Assembly: GCA_002238855.1 (NCBI GenBank)
Contig: MPND01000002.1
Coordinates: 62,001 to 126,000 of the forward strand
DNA: 64,000 bases
From: SAR202 cluster bacterium bin90
Lineage (GTDB): Bacteria; Chloroflexota; Dehalococcoidia; Lucifugimonadales; JADFKI01
Reading direction: 5' to 3'
The position numbers and the translations under genes were made by a program. A model generated the notes under the pieces. It saw only the letters and a list, made by a program, of their open reading frames with translations. It ran no database searches and was not told the origin of the DNA. Position 1 is the stretch's first letter; each line of letters starts with the position of its first letter. Of this stretch, positions 46,414 through 50,587 are shown piece by piece.

Positions 46414-47748
46414 ATGGCAACCATCGAAGAACGCTATAACGAGATGTTTGGCAAGTCGATTGAATGGTACGAAAGAGGCAAGTCCCTGTTTGCAGGCGGC
46501 ATTACTCACCAGACGCGTTTCACCTCTCCCTTCCCCGCATACATCGACCACGCTGAGGGCCCATACAAGTACGATGTTGACGAGAACCAGATTATTGACT
46601 ATGTGATGGGCAACGGCAGCCTCCTGATGGGTCACAGCAAGCCCGAGATTATCGAGGCCGTCAGGGAACAGGCCGGCAGAGGAACCCATGTGGGCGGCGC
46701 ATCCACCCACGAAGTGCGCTACGCCGAGGCTGTCAAGCGCCTTGTGCCTTCGCTTGAGCGCGTCCGCTTCACCGCATCCGGCACCGAGTCAACCTATCTC
46801 GCTCTCAGGCTGGCACGCGCCTTCACCGGAAAGACCAAGATAATCAAGTTCCACGAGCACTTCCACGGCTGGCACGACTATGTCACGCCCGAATCCGGCC
46901 AGGCTCTCGGCGGCGTTCCCAAGGAAGTCCTCGACACCGTAATAGTCGCCCCGGTGGACATCGCCGCAGTCGATGCCATCCTTACGAACGACAACGACGT
47001 CGCAGCCGTGATCGTCGAGTGCAACGGCGCTCACTATGGCACATTCCCATTGCAGAACCCGCAGTTCCTTCACGACCTGCAGGACCTCGCAAGGCGGCAT
47101 GGCGTCCTGTTCATTATGGACGAGGTGATAACGGGATTCCGCCTCTCACCCGGCGGCGCGCAGGTCCGCTGGGGACTCGAACCCGACCTTACGACAATGG
47201 CAAAGATTATCGCGGGCGGTCAGCCCGGCGCCGCTGTCGGCGGCAGGGCAGACATTATGGAGCTTATGGCGTTCCAAAACGACCCCGAATGGGACAACCA
47301 TCTCAGAGTAGCCCAGGGCGGAACTTACAACGCCCAGCCCGTCACGGCAGCGGCAGGCATCGCCGCCCTCGAAGCAATCGCCAACGAGGGCATCAACGCC
47401 AGGGCGGACGCAATGTCGGAACGCCTCAAGGAAGGCCTGAACGCGGCATTCATTCAGAACGAAGTCACAGGCCACGCGCACGGCATCTCTTCGATCATTC
47501 ACGTCAACTTCGGTGCCGACTGCAACTGCGACCGCGACATCTGCAACATGCCATACCAGCAGATCTACGACACCATGCCGGCGGAAATGACACGCTCCCT
47601 GCGCCGCGCGATGCTCGTCAACGGCGTGGACATGATGGGCGGCAGAGCCTTCATAGTCTCGTCATCCCACGACGAAGATGTCATAGACCGCACGACCGCT
47701 GCCTTCTCGCAGTCCCTCAAAGACCTGCGCGCCGAAGGCGAGCTGTAA
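46414..47748 (+). CDS. Class III aminotransferase, glutamate-1-semialdehyde aminomutase-like
   Basis: A 444-residue PLP enzyme with Asp236 (IMDEV) and Lys264 (TMAKIIAGG). The residues RFTASGTESTYLALRLARAFTGKTKIIKFHEHFHGWHDY parallel the homologue at 25875. It differs in the loop CNCDRDICNMPYQQIY, where several Cys residues cluster near the C terminus, a feature absent from the other copy. It starts an apparent operon with an SDR and an AhpD-like protein, so a catabolic role is likelier than haem synthesis. Confidence 0.85.
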   Translation: MATIEERYNEMFGKSIEWYERGKSLFAGGITHQTRFTSPFPAYIDHAEGPYKYDVDENQIIDYVMGNGSLLMGHSKPEIIEAVREQAGRGTHVGGASTHEVRYAEAVKRLVPSLERVRFTASGTESTYLALRLARAFTGKTKIIKFHEHFHGWHDYVTPESGQALGGVPKEVLDTVIVAPVDIAAVDAILTNDNDVAAVIVECNGAHYGTFPLQNPQFLHDLQDLARRHGVLFIMDEVITGFRLSPGGAQVRWGLEPDLTTMAKIIAGGQPGAAVGGRADIMELMAFQNDPEWDNHLRVAQGGTYNAQPVTAAAGIAALEAIANEGINARADAMSERLKEGLNAAFIQNEVTGHAHGISSIIHVNFGADCNCDRDICNMPYQQIYDTMPAEMTRSLRRAMLVNGVDMMGGRAFIVSSSHDEDVIDRTTAAFSQSLKDLRAEGEL

Positions 47749-47777
47749 TTGTTGATAGAATAGATTCAGGAGTATAC

Positions 47778-48527
47778 ATGACGCGCTTTGAACAACAGGT
47801 CGCAATAGTAACAGGAGCCGCAACCGGCATAGGCTACGGCATCGCCCGCCGTCTCGCTTCCGAAGGCGCGCGCCTCGTCATGGTTGACATCGACGGCGAC
47901 CTCGGCGAACAATCAGCCAGCGAAATGTCGGCCCGCGGCAGCGACACCCGCCTCGTGGTCGGCGACGTCTCCGAGCAGTCCACCGCCGAAGCCGCCGTCC
48001 AATCCGCTCTAGACACATGGGGACGCATCGACATCCTCGTGAACAACGCCGGCATCACTGGCATCGACGGCGGCATCTGGGAACTCCCCCTAGAAGAGAT
48101 GGACCGCGTCTATCGCATCAACCTGCGTGGCGTATTCGCGTTCTGCCATTCGGTCATTCCGCACATGATCGACCGCGACTACGGCCGCATCGTCAACATC
48201 GCCTCCATCGCCGGCAAGGAGGGCAATCCCCGCATGGTGCCCTACTCCGCCACCAAAGCCGCCGTAATCGGCCTCACCAAGTCCGTCGGCAAGGAACTCG
48301 CCAAGACCGGCGTCCGCGTCAACTGCGTAACGCCCGCCGTCGTCCACACCCGCATCCTCGACGAGCTCACGCCCGAGCAGGTCAGCTACATGGTCGAGCG
48401 CATCCCAATCGGACGCACCGGCGAAATCAACGAGATAGCCGCCCTTGTCGCCTGGCTCGCCTCTGAAGAATGCTCATTCAGCACAGGCGGTGTCTTCGAC
48501 ATCAGCGGCGGCAGAGCCACTTACTAA
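47778..48527 (+). CDS. Short-chain dehydrogenase/reductase (FabG-like)
   Basis: A 249-residue classical SDR. The cofactor motif TGAATGIG, the NNAG motif, the catalytic Tyr-Lys in YSATK (with Ser in NIASIAG) and the C-terminal GRTGEINEIAALVAWLASEECSF are conserved. ATG at 47778 has CAGGAG a few bases upstream. An apparent extension of this frame back to 47019 lies within the aminotransferase gene and is not translated. Its substrate, perhaps a hydroxy or keto acid, is unknown. Confidence 0.92.
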   Translation: MTRFEQQVAIVTGAATGIGYGIARRLASEGARLVMVDIDGDLGEQSASEMSARGSDTRLVVGDVSEQSTAEAAVQSALDTWGRIDILVNNAGITGIDGGIWELPLEEMDRVYRINLRGVFAFCHSVIPHMIDRDYGRIVNIASIAGKEGNPRMVPYSATKAAVIGLTKSVGKELAKTGVRVNCVTPAVVHTRILDELTPEQVSYMVERIPIGRTGEINEIAALVAWLASEECSFSTGGVFDISGGRATY

Positions 48528-48577: not shown

Positions 48578-48628
48578 AATTCCCTATCTATCCTGTCCAT
48601 CGATGTGAATTACCGAAAGGAACAAAAG

Positions 48629-49183
48629 ATGCCATGGATTCGTGAGGCCGAAGAACGCCTGCACTGGGCGAATGTCATAAACATTATGTCCATCAACCCG
48701 AAGGCAATGCAGGCCGTCAGTGACCTGAACAACGCCATTACATTCGGCTCGTCCGCGCTCACCCGCACTCAGGAGGAGGCAATAGCCACCGCCGTCTCCG
48801 TTCAGAACGAATGCCGCTTCTGAACGATGGCACACGGGGAGTTTCTCCGTCACGCCTCCGACGATCCCGAGCTGGCAAGCCACGTCATGCACGACTACCG
48901 CAAGGCCGACCTTGACCCGCAGACACGCGCTATGCTCGACTACGCCACCAAACTCACCCGCGAGCCGACCAGCATGCAAGAGTCCGATGTCATAAAGCTG
49001 CGAGAGCACGGACTCTCCGACGAGCAGATTCTCTCGGTCTGCCTGATTGCCTGCACCTTCAATTTCATGACCCGGCTGGCAGACGGCTTGGGCGTCGAAG
49101 TGCCCGAAGAGCGCCAGAAGTATGTGGAAACATGGCTGGACAGCCCCGCCCGCAACCAGCAATGGCTCATGAAACAGAAATGA
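48629..49183 (+). CDS. AhpD/carboxymuconolactone decarboxylase-like peroxidase-related protein with in-frame UGA (candidate selenoprotein)
   Basis: Reading through a single UGA (48821-48823) gives 184 residues of the peroxidase-related AhpD-like family. The ATG at 48629 follows AAAGGAACAAAAG. The frame carries Glu50, Cys62, UGA at 65, and His69, that is E-x11-C-x2-U-x3-H, matching the Glu, CxxC and His of AhpD with UGA at the second Cys. After the UGA, 119 family-like residues follow in the same frame (AHGEFLRHASDD, LDYATKLTREP, CTFNFMTRLADGLGV). A hairpin fitting the bacterial SECIS follows. A nonsense mutation or sequencing error is the alternative, since TGA is one base from TGC or TGT. 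Confidence 0.7.
48829..48856 (+). promoter_or_regulatory. Putative bacterial SECIS hairpin
   Basis: A 3-bp lower stem (GGC 48829-48831 with GCC 48854-48856), a small internal loop, then a 6-bp upper stem (ACGGGG 48834-48839 with CTCCGT 48845-48850, one G-U) closes loop AGTTT. Sixteen bases lie between the UGA and the loop, and the loop has G in its second position, as in the bSECIS model I recall. Not folded by computer. Confidence 0.5.
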
Positions 49184-49255: not shown

Positions 49256-50587
49256 TCAGTCTCCCGCTGCGGGACTCTGGGCGGCTTCGTCAGCCTCCCA
49301 GTCCGGAATCAGCAGCTTGTCCGTTGGCTCCAGCACCAGTATGTTCAGCGCACCGGCAAGACTGGTCGCTATCGAAATCCACAGCGCCACATTGTAGTTG
49401 CCGAATATGTCGAATATCGGCCCGCCAATCCAGCCGCCCAGCGCCATCCCAAGACCTGCGCCCAACATCTGCACGCCATACGGCGCCCCCGTCGGCGCAT
49501 GCCCATAGTACCGCCTGTTCAGTATCGGGACCCCGCCCGTCTCGCCGCCGTATCCGATGCCGAATATCACCGCGAACAGGTAGAACATCCAAAGATCGTG
49601 CGTCCAGAACAGCATCAGCACAAGAATGCCCTGCGCCGCAAAGAAGATGAACATCACCGTCCTCGTGCCTATGGTGTCGCACATAATCGGCACGAATACC
49701 CGTGAAATCACGCTGACCGCGGACAGAACCGTGAGCACGCCCGCCGCCTGCACCAGCGTCAGCCCCTCCTTGACAGCCAGCGGCACGATGTACACGAGAA
49801 TGATCGCGTGCCCCACGCATCCCAGGAAGTGAATGGAGCTCATATTCCAGAATGCGGCGGTCTTCCGCATATAGCCGTTGAAGAGCTTAGTTCGCGTCGG
49901 ATCGCTCTCACGCTTCCGTACTTCCCTATCCCCAGGTCTGTACCCATACGGCTGAATGCCCTTGTCCGCCGGGGTGTCTCGGAACAACCCGATCAGCAAG
50001 AACATGATCGCCGCCGACCCAACTCCTAGGGCAATGAAGCCGTTCTGCCAGCCCATCCCTTCGAGCAGCAGGCTCACGACCACGGCGGCAAGTGCCGGTC
50101 CAAGCCCCCACGACGCCATTATCAGGCCCATGCCTATACCCAGGTGCCGCCGGAACCAGTACATCGCCGCGGGTATCAGCGGAACGAGAAATATCGCCTG
50201 CGCGGTGCCAAGCAGCACACCGAAATACAGGTACAACTCCCAGATTGTGCTTATGAATCCGGTAAGCAGCATCCCCGCAAGGAACATCGCCGTACCGACG
50301 ACCATCGCCTTGCGCGCGCCAAATCGGTCGCCGAACCACCCCGCAAACGGCGAAGCCAAGGCCGTCACCACGCTCGAAATCGCGTATGCGAGCGTAATAC
50401 TGCCCTGGCTCCATTGGAATGTCTGCTCTAGCGGCTCGATGAACACGCCAAAAGCCATGCGGATGGACGTGCCGACCATCTGCATTACGGCGATGACGGT
50501 TACAATGACCCAGACATAGTGAGGGTAAATGACGCGCCCGTAATTCAATTGCGGGCCCGTCGTGGACGGCTCGGTTTGTCTTGCCAT
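49256..50587 (-). CDS. MFS transporter (monocarboxylate/oxalate-formate antiporter-like)
   Basis: A 443-residue protein with 12 predicted helices. MQMVGTSIRMAFGVFIEPLEQTFQWSQGSITLAYAISS and the loop motif GWFGDRFGARKAMVVG in the first half are characteristic of MFS. The central loop (RPGDREVRKRESDPTRTKLF) separates the two halves. Similarity to the OFA/MCT group is inferred from the opening FGVFIEPL. It probably moves organic anions. It is convergent with the AhpD-like gene. Confidence 0.85.
   Translation of the reverse strand: MARQTEPSTTGPQLNYGRVIYPHYVWVIVTVIAVMQMVGTSIRMAFGVFIEPLEQTFQWSQGSITLAYAISSVVTALASPFAGWFGDRFGARKAMVVGTAMFLAGMLLTGFISTIWELYLYFGVLLGTAQAIFLVPLIPAAMYWFRRHLGIGMGLIMASWGLGPALAAVVVSLLLEGMGWQNGFIALGVGSAAIMFLLIGLFRDTPADKGIQPYGYRPGDREVRKRESDPTRTKLFNGYMRKTAAFWNMSSIHFLGCVGHAIILVYIVPLAVKEGLTLVQAAGVLTVLSAVSVISRVFVPIMCDTIGTRTVMFIFFAAQGILVLMLFWTHDLWMFYLFAVIFGIGYGGETGGVPILNRRYYGHAPTGAPYGVQMLGAGLGMALGGWIGGPIFDIFGNYNVALWISIATSLAGALNILVLEPTDKLLIPDWEADEAAQSPAAGD

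Follow-up and report, generated by a model that had tools for sequence, protein, structure and literature searches.

A conserved AhpD-like gene with a predicted selenocysteine codon in an uncultured Dehalococcoidia lineage

Results

The reading frame and its surroundings

The window analysed here is a stretch of 64,000 nucleotides, and at 48629-49183 it carries a reading frame in which 64 codons are followed by a single TGA (codon 65), a further 119 codons and a terminal TGA, as the preliminary description had claimed. Ordinary ORF calling splits this gene into ORFs of 72 and 118 amino acids. The features of the locus are as follows.

46414..47748, + strand: PLP aminotransferase (glutamate-1-semialdehyde aminomutase-like) preceding the SDR gene; kept in the genus
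47754..48527, + strand: SDR-family dehydrogenase, immediately upstream of the predicted selenocysteine (Sec) gene; start codon provisional
48616..48621, + strand: Shine-Dalgarno-like AAAGGA, read from the sequence, 7 nt upstream of the ATG
48629..49183, + strand: predicted AhpD-like selenoprotein gene, 184 amino acids with Sec65, TIGR01926 family (from read-through translation, profile matches and homologue alignment)
48776..48778, + strand: Glu50, equivalent of the AhpD proton-relay Glu; invariant in 25 homologues, with spacing as in M. tuberculosis AhpD
48812..48814, + strand: Cys62 of the CxxU motif, putative resolving partner of Sec65; invariant in 25 homologues
48821..48823, + strand: in-frame TGA, predicted selenocysteine codon 65; of 46 motif-bearing homologues aligned, 30 have TGA here
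48833..48835, + strand: His69, equivalent of the AhpD proton-relay His; nearly invariant
48834..48850, + strand: SECIS-like hairpin with a 7-bp stem (48834-48840 / 48844-48850) and the loop GTT (GNN in homologues)

We scanned the window for TGA codons preceded by 30 or more open codons and followed by 40 or more, which yielded 199, and 39 of these have coding-like composition on both sides. The TGA at codon 65 is the only one of the 39 that lies in a CxxU motif, no comparable motif being present at the window's other read-through candidates, and the hairpin on its 3' side has the lowest free energy of the 39 (-14.6 kcal/mol). The context of this codon is more than chance.

At every same-genus locus examined, the SDR gene adjoins the Sec gene, and the two are also neighbours in two other genera of the family. 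On the other side, ARAGORN calls a tRNA-Cys at 49710-49782 on the minus strand, within an MFS transporter gene (49256-50587); the call is without Rfam support and is probably a false hit.

Protein family and predicted fold

Translated through the TGA, the protein contains the set E50-x11-C62-x2-U65-x3-H69 exactly as first described. It matches TIGR01926, "peroxidase-related enzyme", at 131 bits (cutoff 81.8) over residues 7-158, with the TGA inside the match. The Pfam CMD domain (PF02627, carboxymuconolactone decarboxylase superfamily) also spans the TGA, at 41.7 bits against a gathering cutoff of 23 over residues 24-88, a match that denotes the fold family and not decarboxylase activity. The description of the product as AhpD-like therefore holds in the sense of TIGR01926 but not in that of classical AhpD, as TIGR00777 scored 13 bits against a cutoff of 191.95. 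A further candidate, the AhpD-related CxxU selenoprotein model NF041238 (AhpD_rel_CFYUT, "hypothetical protein 1"), gave a local match with an E value of 1.3e-17; however, that model is about twice as long (some 357 positions) and the score of 64.1 bits lies below its cutoff of 175, so the protein is not a member.

An AlphaFold2 model, in which Cys was written for Sec, is all-helical (pLDDT 87.6) and places codon 65 inside the catalytic helix, predicted as residues 63-77. Its best PDB matches are the AhpD-like peroxidase-related proteins 3C1L, 2PFX, 2PRR, 6K40 and 2OYO, at about 1.3-1.7 Å. M. loti Mlr4105 (3C1L) and the Silicibacter protein 2PFX share about 35% identity with the predicted protein by structural alignment, its fold (1.4 Å over 148 columns) and the E-C-C-H set, but have CxxC rather than CxxU. 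The spacing Glu-x11-Cys-x2-Cys-x3-His is also that of M. tuberculosis AhpD (1KNC; E118, C130, C133 and H137), for which a proton relay through these residues has been proposed and is supported by mutagenesis (PMC3141380). That enzyme nevertheless differs in its low overall similarity, in the chain topology around the motif, in having CxxC and in its partner, AhpC.

Codon 65 among homologues

A search of the class found a homologue in 64 of 393 genomes, and the eleven best places besides the gene itself have one TGA each. Within the family, the best match in all eight genomes contains exactly one in-frame TGA; these include the four other species of the genus, whose orthologues are 84-91% identical and keep the TGA at codon 65. 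When homologues were aligned on the motif, codon 65 was TGA in 30 and TGC or TGT in 16, and every homologue with the C-x2-[U/C]-x3-H motif had one or the other. The Cys codons belong to the more distant homologues, and close ones have TGA with the sole exception of L032 (G394:C38:35308-35862, minus strand). This gene, 45% identical and in a genome with selA, keeps E50 and C62 but carries Glu at the position of Sec65 and Arg at that of His69. It has possibly lost its redox function, and the replacement of both residues indicates that not every lineage requires this active site. In a tree, Sec and Cys sequences fall on opposite sides of one branch with weak support (76/63). Several genomes hold more than one Sec copy: L027 (G034:C124:3120-4237) is an AhpD-like gene in two tandem Sec copies, and G007, G013, G366 and G381 have several Sec paralogues each.

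The alignment bears on the idea that the TGA ends translation, which then restarts at codon 67 to give two polypeptides and a split protein. Codon 67 is indeed ATG in the host genome (48827) and opens the 118-amino-acid ORF. However, it is ATG in only 12 of the 30 Sec homologues, the others having GTC, GAG, ACG, GTA and so on, and the break would fall in the predicted catalytic helix, at a catalytic residue. Because the ATG is not conserved, and with a full Sec machinery present (see below), we reject re-initiation as having next to no chance of being correct.

Selection on either side of the TGA

In the genus clade, dN/dS over six orthologues averaged 0.047 before the TGA and 0.051 after it; as many synonymous sites are close to saturation, these ratios are informative only as to their approximate magnitude. 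Equal purifying selection on both sides argues that translation continues past the TGA. If the TGA were instead a true stop, whether in a pseudogene, through a sequencing error or in a decayed AhpD gene ending after 64 residues, the two ORFs returned by a naive ORF caller would be accounted for. Against this, the TGA is conserved over independent assemblies and genera, purifying selection persists for the 119 codons beyond it, and conservation extends to the CxxU motif, to His69 and to the hairpin. A sequencing error for TGC or TGT is rejected because TGA recurs in independent assemblies, those of all four other same-genus genomes and of further Dehalococcoidia MAGs, and a pseudogene is rejected on the dN/dS values, which likewise speak against frame decay in related genomes. 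A true stop is accordingly very improbable.

A SECIS-like hairpin follows the TGA

The hairpin stem begins 13 nt past the U of the UGA. In the 30 Sec homologues, 196 of 210 possible stem pairs are formed, whereas 2000 shuffles of synonymous codons within each gene give 131.9 on average and 149 at most. At the same positions the 16 Cys homologues form 62 of 112 pairs against 57.9 expected, which is no excess. The stem was initially recognised in the very sequences analysed here, so the weight of the comparison falls on two controls, the Cys homologues and the codon shuffles. When 21 Sec sequences were aligned, 98.6% of the cells were paired, and sliding the partner by 1-3 columns lowers pairing to 37-57%. 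In 18 cells both sides of a pair have changed, against an average of 4.4 in shuffles, and compensatory substitutions, G-C to C-G among them, occur in three of the seven pairs. The exact stem is not formed in three Sec homologues (L038, L042 and L056), which may have a different form of SECIS.

Described bacterial SECIS elements lie 3' of the TGA and have a small apical loop with a guanosine (PMC1088965). The hairpin fits this description in lying directly 3' of the UGA and in its small G-containing loop; it also shows covariation, and it adds a line of evidence for Sec that the preliminary description did not have.

The host has the machinery for selenocysteine

The host genome (G000) comprises 4.6 Mb in 213 contigs and is 95% complete, with 6.3% estimated contamination. 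All four components proposed earlier for a search were found in it, so the reading does not fail for want of machinery: selA (547 bits, contig C136), selB (310.7 bits, or 342.3 with a C-terminal piece; C10), selD (393 bits, C49) and a tRNA-Sec (63.8 bits, C44) with anticodon TCA (UCA in RNA). C49 is the window's own 149-kb contig, which lowers the risk that the machinery is that of a contaminant. This SelD (L014, G000:C49:4997-5920) appears to be a selenoprotein itself: its gene has an in-frame TGA within LASCAG-U-ASKFSP, and a hairpin predicted to be stable comes after it.

By hand count, selA is present in 28 of the 33 genomes of the class that have a TGA homologue, compared to 257 of 393 overall, and all genomes holding the closest homologues have it. 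It was not found in G185, G223, G239, G252 and G353, drafts that are 73-90% complete and contain distant paralogues only.

The UGA might also be read by another tRNA, through near-cognate suppression or a tRNA inserting Cys or Trp, and the Cys found at codon 65 in homologues would fit Cys insertion equally. However, a canonical tRNA-Sec with a UCA anticodon is present together with SelA, SelB and SelD, and the hairpin is limited to homologues with the Sec codon; we therefore consider decoding by another tRNA highly unlikely.

Discussion

Sec insertion at codon 65 is strongly supported on comparative evidence. The machinery, the conservation of the TGA, a dN/dS of about 0.05 on both sides of it, the hairpin, and the TIGR01926 match together with the fold all agree with the original proposal that the UGA is read as selenocysteine. 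The locus is thus almost certainly a genuine selenoprotein gene, in which UGA65 would be decoded as Sec by way of the hairpin, SelB and Sec-tRNA(Sec) to give a 184-residue AhpD-like protein. We envisage that the hairpin just 3' of UGA65 recruits SelB with Sec-tRNA(Sec), and that the ribosome would then insert selenocysteine rather than terminate, completing an all-helical protein.

From family, motif and fold we infer redox chemistry, including peroxidase activity, with Sec65 as the attacking and Cys62 as the resolving residue. By analogy with AhpD, Glu50 and His69 may activate Sec65 as a selenolate, which would reduce a hydroperoxide or the disulfide of a partner before being resolved by Cys62 through a selenenylsulfide. 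The closest structures and the family model are indeed those of peroxidase-related AhpD-like proteins, though none tells the substrate. However, the AhpD fold is common to enzymes of differing activity and the debrominase Bmp8 (6OHI/6OHJ) is among the structural matches, so activity cannot be assumed, and the Glu-Cys-X2-Cys-X3-His set is that of a general redox relay. It is quite conceivable, if somewhat less than probable, that the protein contains Sec as proposed but is no hydroperoxidase, serving instead as a thiol/disulfide adaptor or as another CMD-fold enzyme such as a Bmp8-like dehalogenase. Such an alternative bears only on what the protein does and is compatible with Sec insertion.

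The conserved SDR neighbour suggests a link of the Sec gene to a catabolic pathway. The SDR/aminotransferase arrangement is absent at the Dehalococcoidia locus L053, so the link to the SDR is not general. A more specific idea is that the Sec form, which in this Chloroflexota family is stably linked to the SDR, is dedicated to redox chemistry in a catabolic pathway and acts on something other than generic peroxides; we regard this as rather unlikely.

Selenoproteins of this kind have been known since 2005. As the preliminary description stated, AhpD-like CxxU selenoproteins have already been reported from marine metagenomes: a 2005 study of the Sargasso Sea described 27 sequences (PMC1088965), and AhpD-like 1 / COG2128 was among the commonest marine selenoprotein families in GOS in 2008, with 299 sequences (PMC2398784). 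A 2026 review lists TIGR01926 with CxxU as a selenoprotein family (PMC13188914). The protein predicted here shares with these the family model, a CxxU motif with Sec where the second Cys would be, a SECIS on the 3' side and widespread Cys homologues, and differs only in lineage (Dehalococcoidia) and neighbourhood (SDR and aminotransferase). In the parts of the literature that our search covered, we found no specific report of Sec in the SAR202/Chloroflexi lineage. What is new is a well-supported member in a Dehalococcoidia lineage of the Chloroflexota.

The finding leaves knowledge of selenoproteins as such unchanged. It adds to an uncultured Dehalococcoidia lineage a conserved AhpD-like selenoprotein backed by a SECIS, and shows that standard ORF calling would break the gene in two; the clean set of Sec and Cys homologues offers material for studying when Sec replaces Cys.
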